Source: Aphrophora alni
Taxonomy: Eukaryota > Arthropoda > Insecta > Hemiptera > Aphrophoridae
Direction: 5' to 3'
Length of the DNA stretch: 64,000 bases
Assembly (NCBI GenBank): GCA_963513935.1
Contig: OY740776.1
Location: 11,500,724 to 11,564,723, forward strand
Part shown: one piece after another, positions 1,461-60,895 of the stretch
Position numbering within the stretch: the first letter of the stretch is position 1
How the letters are laid out: the number at the start of each line of letters is the position of its first letter
The notes under the pieces: model-generated
The model's input: the letters and a program-made list of their open reading frames with translations, nothing else
Told to the model about the DNA's origin: nothing
The model's database searches: none
Made by a program: the position numbers and the translations under genes

Positions 1461-1985
1461 CTTTTTTTCCAGAGCGCTACAGGCCTTTGGTTTCCTCACC
1501 TATTCGCCTTTAGTCTCTTCTCTCGCCAGCAACTCTCTGTCAGTGCCCTACAACCAAAATACTCTGGCCTCTCTTCCAATCCTGCATTCATCTCCCTCTC
1601 TTCCTTAAGCCACCCATTCTTCCTAACTAAGTCTATATCAGCAACCTCTTTGGTCGCACCCACCCACCAATATCAAAGGAAACTTAACATCGTTGTCTTC
1701 GCAAATTCCACGTTACTCTCACTGTCAGCATGCTATCTATTTATTCGCCAACTCTCCGCACTTGTACATCGGCCTATTGATTAAAAAATATATATTTCTT
1801 TCTCATTATTGGGTGTAAGTATCCGCTCTATACATCATTACCGACCTAATGGAAGTCTTATACATTTTCATTTTAGTTGTCCGGATGAGAAGCATTGACT
1901 TCATCGGTATTAAATTAGCATAGTGCGGTCTGTTTCCAGCAACAATCCTCTTTAGAATTAAAAATAAAAATAATATAGATTCACA
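1461..1985. other. Unassigned stretch, locally C/T-rich
   Basis: From 1500 to 1740 the plus strand is rich in CT-type words and unusually poor in G for this region. No long ORF, repeat partner or RNA gene was recognised. It may be the end of an old element. Confidence 0.3.
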
Positions 1986-2461: not shown

Positions 2462-3415
2462 AAAAAGTATGCAGAAATGAAGTTAACTTTTTAGTTTTTA
2501 GTGGCGTGGTATTTCCTTTTAGATTCATTTTTTATAAAGTGTGTGCTTTATAAACTTTCTTTTATAAGTTTAGAAACTATCTCATTATATATCATAGTTA
2601 GTTAGAAGTTGGAATAAATGCTTTGTTTAAGGTATTTAATGTTTCATATACAGAGTGTGTCAAAACTATGGTAACAAATGCAGAATATTACAAATTTCCG
2701 CCTTCTATTATTTATTAATATATGTGTATACTAATACATATATATTTAATCAATTTGTTTTTTAGGGGTATTTTAGCCAAATGTTGGAACGTTTCAAACG
2801 ATTTTGATAAAATTTTATTGAATTGTAGCCTCTAAGGACATCTTAAAAATGCCAATTTCGTGATTCTCGTTAAAATACCAAAACATATTGGAAATGATAT
2901 AAAATACGTATTTGTTCAAAATATACTTGATTTTCATTAAATATTAATAAAACAGTTCAAATTAATGACCCAAACTCTTGTGTTTATGGCGTAAATAATA
3001 TTCAGGAATATTGGGGCAGGGGGGGGGAGGAATTTAGTCTGATAAAATTTAAAACTTCTATTTTAATCAAATTTCGATTTAAGGATAAAATAAGCACTAA
3101 GCTACAGTTTCAAATGTATTTATTAACTTATTTAGCTACAATCGTTTCGCCTTGCGGCATCTACGGGTTACTGGTAATAGTAAGCCTAAACAAAGTTAAC
3201 AGTACAGAGAGACAGGTCCGGAAGTAACACAATGGAAGGGATAGCTGGAAAACCCAAGCAGGTAGGAAGGGGAATGGTTAACATGTTACACTATTGGTTT
3301 AAGAAGTGGTGAAGCGTAAATACGATTTACGCTGTGGACGAAAGTTTAGGCCCTATTCAATTCTATGTTTTGGTTTACAAACGTAACCAACGATTCTTCA
3401 AAACCAAGTCTATAT
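2462..3415. other. AT-rich stretch without a recognised gene
   Basis: A TACAGAGTGTGTCAAAA terminus at 2648 resembles the ends of the short TIR elements at 5013 and 18663, but no partner end was found. A nine-G run sits near 3018. Words such as CGATTTTGATAAAATTTTAT near 2800 suggest a worn member of the dispersed repeat described at 35325-36130. No coding sequence is evident. Confidence 0.3.
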
Positions 3416-3424
3416 ACAGGGTGT

Positions 3425-3545
3425 TTCAAAGGTGGTATCCACCCCATTTGAGGGACCAGAACCATTCTGTGGACTTGGAGAAAACTACTTCACGATGAGA
3501 GTCAAAAGAGTTGAAGAAGCCAGTAGGTCGAAACTCTGGGGAATA
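3425..3545 (+). pseudogene. Non-LTR retrotransposon RNase H end, interrupted by a satellite
   Basis: The frame containing GAGGGACCAGAACCATTC reads STPFEGPEPFCGLGENYF followed by RVEEASRSKLWG and a stop. GPEPFCG-type residues follow the RNase H domain of some LINE ORF2 proteins; a similar GPEPVFGI occurs in the LINE fragment at 23647-24390. The coding sense is lost where the 104-bp repeats begin and resumes at 4685. The catalytic RNase H residues are not present in this fragment. Confidence 0.55.
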
Positions 3546-4684
3546 AAATAAATATTTGAAGGGAGGTAATAGAACTTCTCAGGAATTACGACATCAAGAT
3601 TAGAGTCAAAAGAAGTGAAGAAGCCATTAGGTCGAAACTATGGGAAAGAAAATAAATATTTGAAGGGAGGTAATAGAGCTGCTCAGGAATTACGACATCA
3701 AGATTAGAATCAAAAGAGTTGAAGAAGCCAGTAGGTCGAAACTATGGGGAATAAAATAAATATTTGAAGGGAGGTAATAGAACTTCTCAGGAATTACGAC
3801 ATCAAGATTAGAATCAAAAGAAGTGAAGAAGCCATTAGGTCGAAACTATGGGAAAGAAAATAAATATTTGAAGGGAGGTAATAGAGCTGCTCAGGAATTA
3901 CGACATCAAGATTAGAATCAAAAGAGTTGAAGAAGCCAGTAGGTCGAAACTCTGGGGAATAAAATAAATATTTGAAGGGAGGTAATAGAACTTCTCAGGA
4001 ATTACGACATCAAGATTAGAATCAAAAGAAGTGAAGAAGCCATTAGGTCGAAACTATGGGAAAGAAAATAAATATTTGAAGGGAGGTAATAGAGCTGCTC
4101 AGGAATTATGACATCAAGATTAGAATCAAAAGAAGTGAAGAAGCCAGTAGATCGAAACTATGGGAAAGAAAATAAATATTTGAAGGGAGGTAATAGAGCT
4201 GCTCAGGAGTTATGACATCAAGATTAGAATCAAAAGAGTTGAAGAAGCCAGTAGATCGAAACTATGGGAAAGAAAATAAATATTTGAAGGGAGGTAATAG
4301 AGCTGCTCAGGAATTACGACATCAAGATTAGAATCAAAAGAGTTGAAGAAGCCAGTAGATCGAAACTATGGGAAATAAAATAAATATTTGAAGGGAGGTA
4401 ATAGAGCTGCTCAGGAATTATGACATCAAGATTAGAATCAAAAGAAGTGAAGAAGCCAGTAGATCGAAACTATGGGAAAGAAAATAAATATTTGAAGGGA
4501 GGTAATAGAGCTGCTCAGGAATTATGACATCAAGATTAGAATCAAAAGAGTTGAAGAAGCCAGTAGATCGAAACTATGGGAAAGAAAATAAATATTTGAA
4601 GGGAGGTAATAGAGCTGCTCAGGAATTATGACATCAAGATTAGAATCAAAAGAAGTGAAGAAGCCAGTAGGTCGAAACTAAGAT
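3475..4684 (+). repeat. 104-bp tandem satellite, about 11.5 copies
   Basis: The word AGGAATTACGACATCAAGAT recurs at 3581, 3685 and 3789 and onward, giving a period of 104 bp. Early copies alternate between two subtypes. One has AGAACTTCTC, GTTGAAGAAGCCAGTAG and GGGGAATAAAATAA; the other has AGAGCTGCTC, AGTGAAGAAGCCATTAG and GGGAAAGAAAATAA. Together they make a 208-bp higher-order unit, and later copies are mostly the second type. The first and last partial units join LINE coding sequence on both sides (3425-3545 and 4685-4983), so the array seems to be an amplified internal segment of that LINE. Because 104 is not a multiple of three, the amplification destroys the frame. Confidence 0.9.
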
Positions 4685-14420: not shown

Positions 14421-14485
14421 AATTTAGTAACTTTCGGAGTGTGATAAACCAGAGATTCAAGACAAACAACTGTGGTGAATATACA

Positions 14486-14670
14486 ATGAAAGAAAATTCC
14501 CCAAAATCACAATTAACCACTAAAAATACAAAGACTGAATGTACATTTCAATAACACTGATATCATCTTTAGAGGTACAATGCACATAAGGTAGAATAAA
14601 CGTAACTATACACCCTTTGTATTGTTAGTGTTTTATTGTGGATTTGGGGAATTTTCTTTCATTAAACATT
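14486..14670. mobile_element. Foldback with a hammerhead-like monomer, relative of the 43.6-kb array
   Basis: The left arm (AATGAAAGAAAATTCCCCAA at about 14486) and the right arm (GGGGAATTTTCTTTCATT at about 14652-14670) are inverted repeats of about 50 bp. On the minus strand, 14535-14580 reads CTAAAGA-TG-ATATCAGTGTTAT-T-GAA-ATGTACAT, a worn copy of the hammerhead in the 43640-46225 array with G5 changed to A. The plus part (ATAAGGTAGAATAAAC, then CTTTGTATTGTTAGTG) is also array sequence. The right arm equals the terminus of that array (46205-46255). This is a single-unit copy of the same element. Confidence 0.75.
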
Positions 14671-14794
14671 CAGTAACTATATTAATGTGATAACTGTAAA
14701 GCTCTAAATAGATCTTGGCTGCAATTATTGTAAAAACTTTAGTAGAGTTTTCGAAGTCGCTCTCTTCTCTCGAACTGATGTGTAAAAGCACATT

Positions 14795-26502: not shown

Positions 26503-26539
26503 ACCTAACCTAACCTAACCTAACCTAACCTAACCTAAA
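26503..26539 (-). repeat. Interstitial TTAGG telomere-type block
   Basis: Seven perfect CCTAA units. TTAGG is the common arthropod telomere repeat. The setting is interstitial. Confidence 0.9.
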
Positions 26540-28870: not shown

Positions 28871-29151
28871 TTTTTATTGTCTCTAAGTATAAACTACTTG
28901 ATTAATGGATAAAATCTTGAGAATAAAAAGGAGTATTAAAAAAAACGGACTACGGCAATGTTTTTAGAATACAAAAACAATGTTAAATGATGTCTTGCAT
29001 GATATCTTTCTGAATTAAAATTTCACTCTGGTGGTTTCAAAATGGCATGCTGAAAATTAAAAGTACATTAAATGAAAGCTAAGGTACTCTATCCACCATA
29101 CACCAACTTTAAAGTTTAAGTTCCTTACCGTTCTCTAGATATTAGGAACAT

Positions 29152-30320
29152 TATCATGCAATCACCCTATATATTATCATGCAATAACCCTATATATTAT
29201 CATGCAATAAGCCTGTTTATTATCATGCAATAACCCTGTTTATTATCATACAATAACCCAGTCTGTTATTACGCAATAACCCTGTATATCATGCAATAAC
29301 CCTATATATTATCATGCAATAAGCCTGTTTATTATCATGCAATAACCCTGTTTATTATCATACAATAACCCAGTCTGTTATTACGCAATAACCCTGTATA
29401 TTATCATGCAATCACCCTATATATTATCATGCAATAAGCCTGTTTATTATCATGCAATAACCCTGTTTATTATCATACAATAACCCAGTCTGTTATTACG
29501 CAATAACCCTGTATATTATCATGCTATAACCCTGTATATTATCATGCAATAAGCCTGTGTATTATCATGCAATAACCCTGTTTATTATCATACAATAACC
29601 CAGTCTGTTATTACGCAATAACCCTGTATATTATCATGCAATAACCCTATATATTATCATGCAATAAGCCTGTTTATTATCATACAATAACCCAGTCTGT
29701 TATTACGCAATAACCCTGTATATTATCATGCAATCACCCTATATATTATCATGCAATAAGCCTGTTTATTATCATGCAATAACCCTGTTTATTATCATAC
29801 AATAACCCAGTCTGTTATTACGCAATAACCCTGTATATTATCATGCAATAACCCTATATATTATCATGCAATAAGCCTGTTTATTATCATGCAATAACCC
29901 TGTTTATTATCATACAATAACCCAGTCTGTTATTACGCAATAACCCTGTATATTATCATGCTATAACCCTGTATATTATCATGCAATAAGCCTGTGTATT
30001 ATCATGCTATATTCCTGTATATTAACTAGCAATAACTCTGTATGTTCTCATCCATAACCTTGTATATTATCGTAGAATAACCTTGCGTATTAACATGATA
30101 CAAGCTGAATTATATCATGCAATAACCCTGTGTTTTGTCATACAATAACCTGGTATATTACTATGCAATAACCCAGTAAATTGTTATGCAATAACCCTGT
30201 ATAATATCATACAATAACTCTGTAATATTATCAAGCAATAATCATCTATATTATCATCCACTTTCCCTGAATTGTTGTCATGGAATATCCTTGTATATTA
30301 CCATGCAATAAATCCATTCG
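29152..30320 (+). repeat. 23-bp minisatellite with 115-bp higher-order repeat
   Basis: The unit TATTATCATGCAATAACCCTG has a period of 23 bp. Variant units (ATAAGCC, CATACAATAACCCAGTC and TGTTATTACGC) recur in fixed order. GTCTGTTATT lies at 29261, 29373, 29488, 29603, 29695, 29810 and 29925, spacings mostly 115 bp with one of 92. The array is regular to about 30010 and degenerates to 30320. It is non-coding. Confidence 0.95.
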
Positions 30321-39553: not shown

Positions 39554-40525
39554 TCTGATTTTAATATTGTTTTTATTTATCTATCTTCTAACTAAAATTT
39601 CTAGTTGTTAGGAGTGCTCTGCAACTGCTAACGTTCGTTAGCTGCTTGGAATTAGCTGCTTTGCACGATTCCGATAGGACCATTTGACCGATTCCATATC
39701 TGAAAACGGCAAAATTCATTTAAAATTATTATTTAAAAAATGACTACCTGCGATTAAAAATAATGATAATAATAATAATATTTTTGCTCAACAACTTTTT
39801 TATAAAAAAATCTAAAAAAGTTTCACCTTCGTAGCGTAAATATTTTATTGATATTATTTACAAAATAACTTACAAAACAAAAATCGGACAATAATTACGC
39901 AAATTATCAGTAATGCAATTTTGCCGCAGAGGTGCTGCTATCTACCGGGCCAGAAACACAACTTTTTCAGGGATGTTTAGCCTTAATTCCTAACATTGGT
40001 ATGAACCATCGATACCGGTAAACCGACAGGGTATATTATTTAGAGTGCTTGACGGCGAGAAATAAGGTAATTAATTACCCATTTATTATATTATTGCATT
40101 CTTGGAAGCTAATAACATTAAACGTTCACCTAAAAAAAATGTGTAATGGATTTCCCCGTACTAGCGTTGCACAATGAACAATTTCATTCACTTCCTAGGG
40201 GTAACATAGCACTCCTTGCCCTGAATAAAGCAGATTAAATTTCTATAATATTTATCATTTTAATAAGCGCAATCCCCCAAGAGAAATTTTTGTTTATTGT
40301 AAATGAGATTTGTTTAAGATATATCCATCCATTTTTAATTTCCTCTTCCAATTTTCATTCAATACATTAACAAAAACACTAATATTAATTACACTAAATG
40401 TATACTTATTTTTTTTAAGATTTAGTATCCAAGCGACAGAATTAATATAATATATTATGTTATAAGATTTTTTATTCGCCATTTCGAATATTGATATATT
40501 AAATAATAAATAAATATGAGACCCA

Positions 40526-40929
40526 CCGTCCACAATATTCTGTTTGGTCGTTTTTTTTATATACGACGGCCGTTTCGGCTATTCAGCCATTATCAAGTTT
40601 ATTATTGGAGAAGCTCCTCCGTTGTCATGGAACACTCAAAAAACAACATAGTTAACATTGACAAAAACACAAACATTGATTTAAAATGAATATTTATTAA
40701 ATTAAATTAAAACGTGACTCGTGAGTCGACACGGTTGTTAGATGTCCCGGTACGTACTGCGTGCGGGTGTGCAAATCAGTGTTTGTGTTTTTGTTAATGT
40801 GTAACTATGTTGTTTTTGAGTGTTCTATGACAACGGAGGAGCTTCTCCAATAATAAACTTGATAACGGCTGAATAGCCGAAACGGTCGTTGTATAAAAAA
40901 AAAACGACCAAACAGAATATTGTGGACGG
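40526..40929. mobile_element. 404-bp foldback with a hammerhead-like motif in each arm
   Basis: Arms 40526-40681 and 40775-40929 are about 155 bp each and close to identical as inverted repeats, with a spacer of about 93 bp. Each arm carries TTGATAA, one unpaired base, GGC-TGAATA-GCC, GAA, then ACGGYCGT and a pyrimidine. The motif is on plus near 40856-40896 and on minus near 40560-40605. This is the layout of a small type I hammerhead, except that C3 is T and G8 is A, so cleavage is doubtful. It directly precedes the PLE relic at 40988. Confidence 0.85.
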
Positions 40930-40987
40930 CGAATCTTACATTTATTTATTATTTACTTACTCCGTCTTGTGAATTACTTGTATATAT

Positions 40988-41021
40988 GTAACGCGTTTCG
41001 AAACTTATGTTCCATCTTCAA
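40988..41021 (-). ncRNA. Hammerhead-like motif (minus) at a PLE end
   Basis: The minus strand reads TTGAAGA, T, GGAAC-ATAA-GTTTC, GAA, ACGCGT, T. Helix II is five pairs, and ACGCGT is self-complementary as in minimal type I hammerheads. C3 is T. It is inverted relative to the plus motif at 41392-41422. Confidence 0.5.
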
Positions 41022-41058
41022 ATTTAGCTCATAAGAGGTCGTTCAAATATTTAAAATT

Positions 41059-41294
41059 ACGCACGTCACTTAATGGATCACCAATTCACAAACTTCAAAC
41101 CTTTGTACTTTCGCAATAAGGACAAATACATGGACGCCATCGAAGAATATGAAATATATAAAGCATCTGAAAAGAATGGTAAAGATGTGTTAAATGATAA
41201 ACTCAACTTCCAATCGACTTCTTTGTACGACGCTGAGATGAGAATACAAGATGACAAACTGAGATGCACAACTCTGACCTCAGTAGTTGCTTGA
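41059..41294 (+). pseudogene. C-terminal tail of a Penelope-like element protein (GIY-YIG end)
   Basis: The plus frame reads YARHLMDHQFTNFKPLYF, then KDKYMDAIEEYEIYKASEK and DVLNDKLNFQSTSLYD. The pattern (A)xHLxDxxHxF, then a loop, then a basic/aromatic stretch ending LNDxLxFxSxxLYD is what I know from the end of the GIY-YIG endonuclease region of arthropod Penelope-like elements. A stop closes it at 41292-41294. The frame is closed upstream of about 41057, so reverse transcriptase is absent. A hammerhead-like motif follows about 100 bp downstream on the same strand and another lies inverted upstream. This matches a 5'-truncated PLE with an inverted terminal segment. Confidence 0.6.
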
Positions 41295-42889: not shown

Positions 42890-43610
42890 ACACTGCACAA
42901 ACTTTCTCACTCACCCATCTCCAAAACGGAATAAAAACTAAACAAAATTAATCGTCATCAAATATGTCAATTTGGTAGTTTTCAATCGAAGTGTGAATAT
43001 ATACAATGGAGTCTGTGTTTAAAAATATCTAAAATTAGAGTCTAAAGTTGATTCCCTTTTGTCAAAAACACGTTCCCAGTGTAAATTGTATTTTGTTCAA
43101 ATTTAGCTTTAAATGAAGGCAGTCAATTATTCTCGAACCGTAATATATATTAACTGCTATATTGAACACGCCTTTGGGTTGTTAATGGTCAAACGAACAT
43201 TTGAACAGTGTCCATAGAGCCTGAAATTTGTTTTCTATAACAGACTAATGGAGGAAATTTTTGGGGGTTTTTACCGATAACTCGCGAACGAAATTCTTTA
43301 AAAGGGATTACGACCAGTACGTTTTGTTTCCGTCTTTAAAGGCTTCACTTGAGTAAACTTTCATCAAAATAGTTTGTGACGATTTTGATAAAATTGTAAT
43401 TTTGTGTTTTTTCTTGCGTCAAATAACCCCAAATGTTGAGTTTTAAAACAAATGGAACAAATGTTCCTAGATATGATCATAATATCACCACAAACAAAGT
43501 TCTACTAAAATCTGTTTTACCCTTTTGTGGTTTAGAGCACTTTACATACGTTAGACAGACATAATGTCGCCTATACTACGTATATGTGACGGAAGAAAAT
43601 TCCTCAAAAC
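42890..43610 (+). repeat. Long dispersed repeat copy (plus)
   Basis: GCACAAACTTTCTCACTCACC, AATTAATCGTCATCAAATAT, GATAACTCGCGAACGAAATT, GATTTTGATAAAATTGTAAT, a TAGACAGACATAATG word and ACTACGTATATGTGA, as in 35325-36130. It ends just upstream of the hammerhead array. Confidence 0.6.
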
Positions 43611-43644
43611 CTAAATATAACGCTAACAACATAATGATTGTATA

Positions 43645-43692
43645 TTTCTGCTTATGTACATTTCAATAGCACTGCTATCGTCTTCAGTAGTA
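43645..43692 (-). ncRNA. Inverted hammerhead motif at the array start
   Basis: The minus strand reads CTGAAGA, CG, ATAGC-AGT-GCTAT, T, GAA, ATGTACAT, A. The core is intact and ATGTACAT is perfectly self-complementary. The first helix I pair is mismatched (A opposite A). Confidence 0.6.
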
Positions 43693-44373
43693 TTGTTATT
43701 CCTAGTAGTAATCGTGGTTATTAAGGTTAGTGTGTATTGTACCTCTGAATATGATAGCAGTGCTATTGAAATGTACATAAGGTTGAATAAACATAACTAT
43801 ACAGTCTTTGTGTTGTTAGTGTTTAACTAACAGTAGTAATTGTAGTTATTAAGGTTAGTGTGTATTGTACCACTGAAGATGATAGCAGTGCTATTGAAAT
43901 GTACATAAGATAGAATAAACATAACTATACACTCTTTGTGTTGTTAGTGTTTAACTAACAGTAGTAATTGTAGTTATTAGGGTTAGTGTGTATTGTACCA
44001 CTGAAGATGATAGTAGTGATATTGAAATGTACATAAGATAGAATAAACATAACAATACAGTCTTTGTGTTGTTAGTGTTTAACTAACAGTAGTAATTGTA
44101 GTTATTAGGGTTAGTTGTATTGTACCTCTGAAGATGATAGCAGTGCTATTGAAATGTACATAAGATAGAATAAACATAACTATACAGTCTTTGTGTTGTT
44201 AGTGTTTAACTAACAGTAGTAATTGTAGTTATTAGGGTTAGTTGTATTGTACCTCTGAAGATGATAGCAGTGCTATTGAAATGCGCATGAGGTAGAATAA
44301 ACATAACTATACAGTCTTTGTGTTGTTAGTGTTTAACTAACAGTAGTAATTGTAGTTATTAAGGTTAGCGTGT

Positions 44374-44418
44374 ATTGTACCTCTGAAGATGATAGCAGTG
44401 CTATAGAAATGTGCATAA
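44374..44418 (+). ncRNA. Hammerhead motif, array monomer 6 (intact)
   Basis: Same elements as the reference monomer at 44631-44675, with A instead of T just before GAA (GCTATAGAAATGTGCATA). Core, helix I and H17 = A are all kept. A near-identical monomer follows at 45007-45051, one 633-bp period later. Confidence 0.65.
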
Positions 44419-44630
44419 GGTAGAATAAACATAACTATACACTCTTTGTGTTAGTGTTTAACTAACAGTAGTAATTGTAGTTATTAAGGTTAGTGTGTAT
44501 TGTACCTCTGAATATGATAGCAGTGCTATTGAAATTTACATGAGATAGAATAAACATAACAATACAGTCTTTGTGTTGTTAGTGTTTAACTAACAGTAGT
44601 AATTGTAGTTATTAGGGTTAGTGTGTATTG

Positions 44631-44675
44631 TACCTCTGAAGATGATAGCAGTGCTATTGAAATGTGCATAAGGTA
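44631..44675 (+). ncRNA. Hammerhead ribozyme motif, reference monomer
   Basis: Helix I is TACCT (44631-44635) with AGGTA (44671-44675), five pairs. Core C3-A9 is CTGAAGA (44636-44642). A TG...T step follows, then helix II ATAGC (44645-44649) with GCTAT (44653-44657) around an AGT loop. GAA is at 44659-44661. Helix III is ATGTGCAT (44662-44669), nearly self-complementary and too short for a stable hairpin, and the cleavage site is UA with H17 = A at 44670. Cleavage would fall between 44670 and 44671. One or two extra bases between A9 and helix II depart from the textbook core. Helix III suggests action as a dimer of adjacent monomers. Activity is inferred, not shown. Confidence 0.75.
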
Positions 44676-45263
44676 GAATAAACATAACTATACACTCTTT
44701 GTGTTAGTGTTTAACTAACAGTAGTAATTGTAGTTATTAGGGTTAGTGTGTATTGTACCTCTGAAGATGATAGCAGTGCTATTGAAATGTGCATAAGATA
44801 GAATAAACATAACTATACAGTCTTTGTGTTGTTAGTGTTTAACTAACAGTAGTAATTGTAGTTATTAGGGTTAGTTGTATTGTACCTCTGAAGATGATAG
44901 CAGTGCTATTGAAATGCGCATGAGGTAGAATAAACATAACTATACAGTCTTTGTGTTGTTAGTGTTTAACTAACAGTAGTAATTGTAGTTATTAAGGTTA
45001 GCGTGTATTGTACCTCTGAAGATGATAGCAGTGCTATAGAAATGTGCATAAGGTAGAATAAACATAACTATACACTCTTTGTGTTAGTGTTTAACTAACA
45101 GTAGTAATTGTAGTTATTAAGGTTAGTGTGTATTGTACCTCTGAATATGATAGCAGTGCTATTGAAATTTACATGAGATAGAATAAACATAACAATACAG
45201 TCTTTGTGTTGTTAGTGTTTAACTAACAGTAGTAATTGTAGTTATTAGGGTTAGTGTGTATTG

Positions 45264-45308
45264 TACCTCTGAAGATGATAGCAGTGCTATTGAAATGTGC
45301 ATAAGGTA
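45264..45308 (+). ncRNA. Hammerhead motif, array monomer 13 (intact)
   Basis: Same sequence as the reference monomer: TACCT, CTGAAGA, ATAGC/GCTAT, GAA, ATGTGCAT, A, AGGTA. Equivalent complete monomers follow near 45389-45433 and 45766-45810. Confidence 0.7.
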
Positions 45309-46225
45309 GAATAAACATAACTATACACTCTTTGTGTTAGTGTTTAACTAACAGTAGTAATTGTAGTTATTAGGGTTAGTGTGTATTGTACCTCTGAAGA
45401 TGATAGCAGTGCTATTGAAATGTGCATAAGGTAGAATAAACATAACTATACACTCTTTGTGTTAGTGTTTAACTAACAGTAGTAATTGTAGTTATTAAGG
45501 TTAGTGTGTATTGTACCTCTGAATATGATAGCAGTGCTATTGAAATTTACATGAGATAGAATAAACATAACTACACAGTCTTTGTGTTGTTAGTGTTTAA
45601 CTAACAGTAGTATTGTAGTTATTAGGGTTAGTGTGTATTGTACCTCTGAAGATGTTAGCAGTGATATTGAAATTTACATGAGATAGAATAAACATAACTA
45701 TACACTCTTTGTGTTAGTGTTTAACTAACAGTAGTAATTGTAGTTATTAGGGTTAGTGTGTATTGTACCTCTGAAGATGATAGCAGTGCTATTGAAATGT
45801 GCATAAGGTAGAATAAACATAACTATACACTCTTTGTGTTAGTGTTTAACTAACAGTAGTAATTGTAGTTATTAAGGTTAGTGTGTATTGTACCTCTGAA
45901 TATGATAGCAGTGCTATTGAAATTTACATGAGATAGAATAAACATAACTACACAGTCTTTGTGTTGTTAGTGTTTAACTAACAGTAGTATTGTAGTTATT
46001 AGAGTTAGTGTGTATTGTACCTCTGAAGATGTTAGCAGTGATATTGAAATTTACATGAGATAGAATAAACATAACTATACAGTCTTTGTGTTGTTAGTGT
46101 TTAACTAACAGTAGTAATTGTAGTTATTAGGGTTAGTTGTATTGTACCTCTGAAGATGTTAGCAGTGATATTGAAATGTGCATGAGGTAGACTAAACATA
46201 ACTATACAGTCTTTGTTATTGTTTT

Positions 46226-46539
46226 ATTGTGATTTTGGGGAATTTTCTTTCATTGTATATATCACACAATGTGGTGTATATATCACCACAGTGCCTAGTG
46301 ATTTATACGTATAATATATGTGGATATTTCCGTTTTCTATAAACATACAACCTTTCGTTTTGTCTCGACATTTTATGCGAGAATTTCTTTCCTTGGGATG
46401 AGCACTGCAGTTTTTTGTAGCACGTTAAAAGGTATATATTTTGTTTACCTTTTGGAATAAAACTACAGTATATGGGTAAAATAACCCATCACTAATTATA
46501 TACAATTTGTCTGATAAACAGCAATAAAAGAAAATAGGT
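46226..46539. other. Array flank, nothing assigned
   Basis: Contains the shared terminal block GGGGAATTTTCTTTCATT (to about 46255) and AT-rich sequence. No gene. Confidence 0.4.
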
Positions 46540-50257: not shown

Positions 50258-50306
50258 GGTTAGGTTAGGTTAGGTTAGGTTAGGTTAGGTTAGGTTAGGT
50301 TAGGTT
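50258..50306 (+). repeat. Interstitial TTAGG telomere-type block
   Basis: About ten perfect TTAGG units, near the end of a long dispersed repeat copy. Confidence 0.95.
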
Positions 50307-50364
50307 ACGCCCTAAACCCCCTGACTCTACGATTTATTACCAATTCCCCTCAGAGGCTTACTTA

Positions 50365-51303: not shown

Positions 51304-51345
51304 TCACTACACGTGTTTCGGACATTATCGTCCATCGTCGGGTGA
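51304..51345 (-). ncRNA. Hammerhead-like motif, left arm (minus)
   Basis: Mirror image of 51451-51492 with the same core and helices. Confidence 0.6.
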
Positions 51346-51450
51346 TAGCACTTAGTTAAAATATTCAACACAAAAAACAATAACATTCACGTACAAGAAA
51401 CACAATATTTTCTTTTTGTTTTTTGTGTTGAATATTTTAACTAAGTGTTA

Positions 51451-51492
51451 TCACCCGACGATGGACGATAATGTCCGAAACACGTGTAGTGA
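51451..51492 (+). ncRNA. Hammerhead-like motif, right arm (plus)
   Basis: Helix I is TCAC (51451-51454) with GTGA (51489-51492). The core is CCGACGA (51455-51461, U4 changed to C). One extra T follows, then helix II GGAC-GATAAT-GTCC (51463-51476). GAA is at 51477-51479. Helix III is ACACGTGT (51480-51487), perfectly self-complementary, and H17 = A at 51488. All helices are present. The U4 to C change in the catalytic core may lower or abolish activity. Confidence 0.65.
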
Positions 51493-55478: not shown

Positions 55479-55523
55479 GTATCAGACGCGTTTCAACGAC
55501 AAGGTCGTCCTCTTCAGTGATAC
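55479..55523 (-). ncRNA. Well-formed type I hammerhead motif (minus)
   Basis: On the minus strand, helix I is GTATCA (complement of 55518-55523) with TGATAC (complement of 55479-55484), six perfect pairs. The core is CTGAAGA, fully conserved. Helix II is ACGAC-CTT-GTCGT with a G-T pair below it and one extra G. Then come GAA, a self-complementary ACGCGT helix III and H17 = C (complement of 55485), giving the classical GUC site. This is the best single motif outside the array. Short helix III implies dimer action or a weak monomer. No PLE protein was seen beside it. Confidence 0.75.
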
Positions 55524-55689: not shown

Positions 55690-56300
55690 CGTCTTCTTTA
55701 AAATAATTTCCTCGAAAAACCACCCACCACACAGCGCTGGAGACGGTACTTCCAATCCTTATAGAACTCGAATACTGGAATAGCTTCCAGCTGGTCGATT
55801 ACAGCTGTTTGAATGATTTCGAGTGTCCTAAAAATATGTCCCTTAAGGTAAATTTTCAATCTCCGGAAGAGGGAAAAGTCACAATGACTCAAGTCAGACG
55901 AATAAGGAGGCTGGGGAGCCAAAGGAATGTTTTCACTGGCGAAAAAGCGTTTACTGAAATTGCTGTGTAACAAGGCGCATTGTCCTTATGCAACACCCTG
56001 TTGTTCTTGATGTTTGGTCTTTAAATGATCGGTAGTGCGAGTCAAATTCAACTCTTCCCCGATCACAAGATCCTGGATTCTGTCGATGCATTAATGGTTC
56101 TTGAAGATGAAAGCCTTCCGATGCGTGGTTCATCTTCTATCGACTTTCTTCCATCTGAATATGACTTAAAACACTGAAAAACCTGGGCTCTTGACAAAAT
56201 ACTGTCTCCGTAGCACTGCTGAAGTTTGCAAAAGTTTCCGTTCCACTGTGCAAACCGTTGGTCGAAATGTCACTCATTTTTAGAACGCAGTAGAATAAAC
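55690..56300 (-). pseudogene. Internally deleted mariner-type transposase (minus)
   Basis: From about 56290 the minus strand reads QQCYGDSILSRAQVFQCFKS and SDGRKSIEDEPRIGRLSSSR, the N-terminal helix-turn-helix part typical of insect mariners (GDxxLSRxxVFEWxKRF, then SGRPSTS). After a frame change it jumps to KDNAPCYTAIS (second catalytic Asp near 55983) and PPYSSDLSHCDFSLFRRLK (third Asp near 55879; about 35 codons apart, D34D type). It ends DWKYRLQRCVVGG. The roughly 150 residues holding the first catalytic Asp are missing. It cannot be active. Confidence 0.85.
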
Positions 56301-60530: not shown

Positions 60531-60535
60531 CACAA

Positions 60536-60895
60536 ACCTAATCTATCCAACCTAACCTAACCTAACCTAACCTAACATAACCTAACCTAACCTAACCTAA
60601 CCTAACCTAAACCTGAACCAACTTACACAAACCTAATCTATCCAACCTAACCTAACCTAACCTAAGATAACCTAACGTACTCTAACCTAACCTAAACCAT
60701 CCATCCTAACGTAACGTTACCCCATCCTAACCTAATCCATCCTACCTAACCTAACCTAACATAACGTATACTACCTAACCTAACCTAACGTGCTCTAACC
60801 TAACCTAAACCATCCATCCTAACGTAACGTTATCTAAACTAACCTACCCCATCCTAACCTAACCTTTCACATTTAACCTAAACAAACCTAACCTT
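60536..60895 (-). repeat. Degenerate TTAGG-type array with higher-order structure
   Basis: CCTAA units, with a longer phrase (AACCAACTTACACAAACCTA, then ATCTATCCAACC) repeated at 60522 and 60613. Another phrase (AACCATCCATCCTAACGTAA) is repeated at 60700 and 60806. This is local expansion inside a dispersed repeat rather than a clean telomere tract. Confidence 0.85.

Follow-up and report, generated by a model that had tools for sequence, protein, structure and literature searches.

The tandem array in the 64,000-nt stretch of Aphrophora alni DNA analysed here (the window) probably arose when part of one pseudo-LTR-like arm was amplified in place within a short non-autonomous Penelope-like element (PLE), and carries a hammerhead-type motif that is mostly decayed. 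The array occupies 43704–46216 on the forward strand with a period of 125 and 19.8 copies, corresponding to ~20 monomers of 125–128 bp with 20 hammerhead-like motifs. A sequence-only reading had placed a satellite at 43640–46225; its tandem organization, monomer length and copy number stand, and its extent is corrected to 43704–46216. Specifically, the region near 43640 does not begin the tandem array, since 43639–43692 (reverse strand) is an inverted and not a tandem copy of the motif region, 78–87% complementary to the array copies. The array is not free-standing but sits between inverted arms, and the natural unit of the locus is the element at 43589–46307 (forward strand; E1), composed of an inverted left arm that includes this copy, the array, a right outer arm, and a tail. 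The ends of E1 were read by eye against the ends of the family. Its outer inverted repeats (43581–43629 and 46213–46261) agree at 76%, the outer right arm (46217–46254, forward strand) terminates in GGGGAATTTTCTTTCATT, and the tail (46283–46307, forward strand; TCACCACAGTGCCTAGTGATTTATA) was matched by comparison with the family tail. Candidate target duplications at 43579–43588 (CGTATATGTG) and 46308–46322 (CGTATAATATATGTG, with a 5-nt insertion) are tentative, being a by-eye reading only; the automatic test misplaced the E1 tail. A decayed, array-free copy of the same element, E2, is present at about 14469–14663 (reverse strand), with inverted arms at 14476–14540 and 14608–14672 (83% complementary) and the core reading CTAAAGA.

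In the family, the motif runs UAUU G UACCU - CUGAAGA - U - GAUAGC AGU GCUAUU - GAA - AUGUACAU - A - AGGUA G AAUA. It contains the complete hammerhead core of nine letters, together with A17 and a self-complementary helix III. Helix I consists of 5 bp, a G.G mismatch and 4 more bp, and helix II of 6 bp with a triloop, its first pair being G.U and one extra U following A9. In the array, the consensus contains UACCU/AGGUA, CUGAAGA, AUAGC/GCUAU, GAA, AUGUACAU or AUGUGCAU, with UA preceding the predicted cleavage site. The sequence-only reading was right that each monomer carries a hammerhead-type motif (20 motif copies in ~20 monomers), and right for the consensus that every one of the listed elements is present; monomer by monomer, the latter statement fails. 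The nine core letters (CUGANGA and GAA) are intact in 15/20 monomers, G8 is missing from five, H17 occurs in 11 with G17 in the other nine, helix I is fully paired in nine and helix II in 16, and the A15.1–U16.1 pair is found in all 20. Core, H17, helix I and helix II are jointly intact in only 6/20 monomers (44373, 44626, 45006, 45259, 45384 and 45761, forward strand), which are partly copies of each other; the copy at 44626–44680 is one example. Nor is the layout that of a canonical small type I hammerhead: helix II does not abut the core (the extra U intervenes, followed by the G.U pair), and a strict descriptor with helix II abutting the core found no match on either strand of the window. 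In the literature, the cleavage site follows the NUH rule (PMC4191386), roles have been described for G8, G12 and the A9–G12 pair beside G10.1–C11.1 (PMC11300833), 1- or 2-nt insertions between CUGAnGA and the stems fall within known hammerhead alignments (PMC10085705), U.U at 10.1–11.1 is found in active natural hammerheads, and a core insertion at A6 is associated with low activity (PMC3088659). Self-cleavage and circular RNA are unlikely for most monomers; the six that are intact might show weak cleavage, in which case dimers joined through helix III would be the most plausible form.

The motif in the array exceeds chance expectation. A loose descriptor, composed after the motif had been seen, matched six array copies, and five places when one strand of 129 Mb of Markov sequence was scanned, and a descriptor with a self-complementary helix III matched four array copies and a site at 55517 (reverse strand) of the window, with none in 198 Mb. 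Covariance models were less responsive. The Rfam hammerhead models, a check that had been proposed with the motif, gave no match at E ≤ 10 in 43600–46300, and nothing in the window reached a gathering score. At control loci the same models covered the pattern site in 9/10 cases at E ≤ 1; we nevertheless weigh the silence of Rfam with caution, as these models also found no hammerhead at 55479, where a motif is present. Model R1, whose training set was eight type I hammerheads from viral contigs, matched the array motif weakly (44249–44295; 3.9 bits, E 9.3). One viral contig (L017, 2403–3880) holds four type I hammerhead matches of 25–30 bits within 1.5 kb. In folding, RNAalifold on the 20 copies did not predict the hammerhead, and the single monomer, whose folding had likewise been proposed, formed a long imperfect hairpin that is not unusual relative to shuffles (z –1.12). 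Rfam rows for miRNA families, all below gathering scores, mark long hairpins; a near-perfect hairpin of ~130 bp, with miRNA families below their gathering scores, lies at 51331–51465.

Beyond the window, the genome (1.70 Gb, 388 contigs) yielded at least 113 matches to the monomer (best 40 of 1567 candidates scored) and at least 50 to the outer arm with tail (best 39 of 1086 candidates scored). A recognisable tail was present in 48 of the 68 loci examined, and both ends in 32. These two-ended copies measure 211–524 bp; their left end is fixed, and only the right end bears a 33-nt tail. Target duplications of ~10 bp, counted when 8 or more of 10 letters agree, flank 18/32 of them versus 31/992 mispaired controls, with no good duplication at the remaining 14. 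Inverted arms occur in E1, E2 and loci such as L129, L143 and L146; the viral contigs, searched for the arm end, contained none. We read the family as a non-autonomous PLE, since inverted pseudo-LTRs, short duplications and a tail have all been published for PLEs: PLE inserts with inverted pLTRs, a 31-bp tail and a 9-bp duplication have been described (PMC3846280), as have an optional 30–40 bp tail and a hammerhead (PMC11167929).

The coding link of the arm family to PLEs rests on one locus, L241. There, a tail and arm (1650–1833, reverse strand) and a second arm (2548–2692, forward strand) enclose forward-strand similarity to proteins of GIY-YIG loci at 1858–2067 (L232, E 1.5e-7) and, at 1921–2061, to the protein of GIY-YIG locus L222 (E 2.6e-11), so that inverted family arms flank PLE-like coding sequence (L241 1650–2692, or G000 C13:27770649–27771691). 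L155 is a rearranged duplicate of L241 and was not counted separately. The genome holds at least 36 GIY-YIG matches (best 150 of 4337 candidates scored), and the PLE identity of the GIY-YIG loci is based on this domain plus reverse-transcriptase-like strings, recognised by eye in two frames (L229 and L231). Combined with the arms, tail and target duplications, L241 supports the earlier suggestion of a non-autonomous element, probably of PLE type. The array's arm had no match in any of 30 GIY-YIG loci, and none of the five arm-family interiors tested matched GIY-YIG loci.

The window provides further PLE-associated sequence, as had been claimed from its letters. A PLE relic at 40500–41255 combines 143-nt inverted arms (40500–40642 and 40813–40955, 93%) with similarity to GIY-YIG-bearing proteins at 41058–41255, and includes a hammerhead-like motif with a 1-nt linker and a changed core (40559–40602, reverse strand; R1 15.1 bits). 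The best R1 hammerhead match of the window, first surfaced through that model, lies at 55479–55523 (reverse strand; 21.3 bits, E 1.9e-4), with an intact CUGAAGA core, a 6-bp helix I and ACGCGU as helix III; on sequence it is a better candidate for cleavage than the array. The stretch around 55479 has relatives in 3/30 GIY-YIG loci and that around 40559 in 10/30. GIY-YIG locus L225 carries the full 55479 motif, and a 1-nt linker with a helix II that starts with G.U is common to the array motif, 55479–55523, and L225. At L208, a linker of 1 nt separates CTGATGA from a 6-bp helix II, and helix III is not self-complementary. Scanned with relaxed criteria, the 30 GIY-YIG loci gave two matches in 192 kb versus none in 1.15 Mb of Markov sequence. 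The array motif is real, and plausibly of the PLE hammerhead kind. We infer that the family was mobilised by a PLE, and that its motif descended from a working PLE hammerhead. Against a PLE origin stand (i) the lack of any match to the arm in 30 GIY-YIG loci, or to these loci in the five interiors tested, which leaves L241 as the one linking locus, (ii) the 14/32 two-ended copies that show no good target duplication, (iii) the R1 score of 3.9 bits and the absence of an Rfam hammerhead, and (iv) the absence of core constraint in an independent sample and of covariation.

Indeed, 0/17 pairs changed on both sides, and conservation within the monomer does not single out the motif, in which 12/55 columns vary versus 11/73 other columns (p 0.36). 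In a first dispersed sample of 46 arm pieces, which was assembled without the array loci L131 and L147–L151 and the near-duplicates L137 and L138, the 12 critical columns showed eight changes in 514 cells, with a composition-matched p of 0.006 and a rank of 2 among 69 slid patterns. We then turn to an independent sample of 68 arm pieces from 37 loci, picked by outer arm and tail, in which the core was no more conserved than its surroundings (51/651 in critical versus 40/703 in unselected columns outside the motif, p 0.75). Constraint on the core was accordingly rejected, and we take the signal of the first sample to be a selection effect. Units of the other arrays (61 copies, including L147) gave a similar result (31/720 critical versus 267/5390, p 0.52). 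Complete copies of the independent sample retain the core in 12/29, H17 in 28/29 and A15.1–U16.1 in 25/29; copies having gaps or missing columns were left out of the per-copy tables. One double change that preserves a pair was seen in the other-array units, and one that does not preserve its pair in the independent sample.

These null results count in favour of a second explanation, which we regard as unlikely overall: that the family is a foldback-type DNA transposon resembling Tetris, whose long terminal inverted repeats spawn satellites, and that the hammerhead likeness reflects an imperfect inverted repeat plus chance. The lack of covariation, of an Rfam hammerhead and of core constraint is what such an origin would lead one to expect, as are long inverted arms able to pair into a single hairpin and a monomer that folds, at z –1.12 relative to shuffles, as a long imperfect hairpin. 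Target duplications of 8–10 bp also fit foldback DNA transposons, so the ~10-bp duplications of the family count on this side as well; Tetris makes duplications of 8–10 bp and has tandem repeats in its inverted repeats (PMC4079207), and MITEs are known as seeds of satellites (PMC9659126). However, the ends of the family are asymmetric, with the 33-nt tail on one side only, where foldback elements have symmetric terminal repeats. PLE-like coding sequence lies between the arms of L241, the same motif layout recurs near a PLE endonuclease, and the descriptor that catches both the array and 55517 had no chance match in 198 Mb. A plain MITE with a chance motif was rejected in view of the tail, the PLE-side motifs, and L241.

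How the array grew was examined through its internal repeats. A 639-bp block (44159–44797, forward strand) recurs exactly at 44792–45430, and a 319-bp block (45307–45625, forward strand) at 45684–46002. No neighbouring complete monomers are identical; identical pairs occur four times at an offset of five monomers and once at an offset of three. This block pattern points to the residue of unequal exchange in DNA, rather than copying of one RNA monomer. Six other arrays exist in the genome, with unit boundaries that differ from those of the window: units measure ~130 bp at L131, ~144–149 bp at L148, L149 and L150, 146–167 bp at L151, and ~165 bp on C14, the last estimated from match positions. 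L204 was likewise used only through its match positions. In the L148–L151 arrays the arm end CTTTCATT is joined to the arm start, unlike the window array, whose unit lacks the outer arm; two window-type units are found at L147, 0.9 Mb from the window. Since the unit boundaries of the other arrays differ, no fixed unit running from cleavage site to cleavage site was copied.

The sequence-only reading had gone further, suggesting a possible non-autonomous retrozyme family that produces monomeric circular RNAs; in such a non-LTR retrozyme, active hammerheads would cut out monomers that circularise and retrotranspose. In favour of that idea, the units are in tandem and carry a motif of type I whose helix III is self-complementary. 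Axolotl HHR_Amex2 has U.U at the base of helix II, with its monomer cutting at 22% per hour and its dimers better (PMC7229834), and among mispairs at this position U10.1–U11.1 is the one most compatible with cleavage (PMC3088659). Nevertheless, G17 in 9/20 monomers, the absence of G8 from 5/20, growth through 639-bp and 319-bp block duplications, unit boundaries that vary among arrays, and a unit shorter than the 150–450 bp reported for metazoan repeats (PMC7229834) make it hardly tenable. An array lodged between inverted arms and built by multi-monomer DNA duplications, with no compensatory change and no core constraint, gives no support to a family yielding monomeric circular RNAs.

Under the preferred explanation, amplification of a PLE arm, a full copy of the element has two inverted arms of ~150–200 bp with a 33-nt tail at one end, and was inserted with a target duplication of ~10 bp, presumably by an enzyme, supplied by a complete PLE, that acted on the element RNA. 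Each arm carries a motif with the layout of a small hammerhead of PLE type, comprising CUGAAGA, an extra nucleotide, a 6-bp helix II with G.U first, a triloop and GAA, followed by the self-complementary helix III, A17, and helix I. At the window locus, ~20 head-to-tail monomers would have arisen from the inner arm, chiefly through the duplication of DNA blocks spanning several monomers, with the motif carried along during array growth. Within a two-armed element the hammerheads would lie on opposite strands and could not dimerise in one transcript. Tandem multiplication might then let neighbouring motifs dimerise via helix III and so switch on RNA processing, opening a route from PLE to retrozyme. 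On this view, miniature PLEs with a small hammerhead in each of their two inverted arms would have seeded satellites repeatedly; we give this proposal a slim chance.

Hammerhead satellites and retrozymes have already been tied to PLEs in print. The small PLE-associated hammerheads of Lunse 2017 and Cervera 2014 reportedly cleave as dimers; they share with the present motif a short self-complementary helix III and a PLE setting, and may differ in lacking the extra nucleotide that precedes helix II here. The PLE families of Adineta vaga (PMC3846280) and the PAc element of Anolis (PMC11167929), as described in those sources, share with our family inverted arms, an optional tail of ~31–40 bp at one end, short target duplications, a hammerhead motif in the terminal repeat, and copies that are palindromic and partly tandem. 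In contrast to them, the two-ended copies here span 211–524 bp and are mostly arms without an ORF, the arms recur as satellites, and only a single locus was seen to have PLE coding sequence between its arms. Metazoan non-LTR retrozymes (PMC7229834) similarly have a type I motif in low-GC tandem repeats, whereas the unit here is 125–128 bp instead of 150–450 bp, sits inside an inverted-arm element, and bears mostly decayed motifs. Satellite monomers with a hammerhead motif are likewise shared with pDo500 of Dolichopoda, which is described as keeping its core and showing compensatory changes (PMC2837043); the window array shows neither. Tetris of Drosophila virilis, a non-autonomous element with 8–10 bp duplications, likewise gave rise to a satellite through its inverted repeats (PMC4079207), and other element-born satellites have the same kind of origin (PMC9659126); unlike Tetris, our family has a tail at one end only, arms that enclose PLE sequence at one locus, and a hammerhead-type motif.

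The window also contains further repeats and element remnants. Additional tandem arrays occupy 3490–4680 (104 bp × 11.5) and 29150–30311 (23 bp × 50.7). Stretches of 5-mers of TTAGG/CCTAA type occur at 26503–26538, 50258–50307 and 60535–60865, and resemble arthropod telomere repeats. Weak similarity to SETMAR at 1213–1446 and 55701–55985 (both reverse strand; E 0.006 and 0.027) marks mariner-type transposase relics, and among ten short frames of the window compared with Pfam a single match, to RNase H, scored 25.1 bits, below the cut-off of 25.8.

To our knowledge, the transition from PLE arm to satellite is an open question. A single genome here offers dispersed elements, L241, and seven arrays with differing boundaries, so that the steps of this transition can be compared within one species. 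If the route from PLE to retrozyme were true, the birth of an array would release monomer or circular RNAs, and the route would be visible at seven loci of one genome. The locus also carries a caution: the hammerheads of a satellite can for the most part be dead passengers while the array grows at the DNA level.
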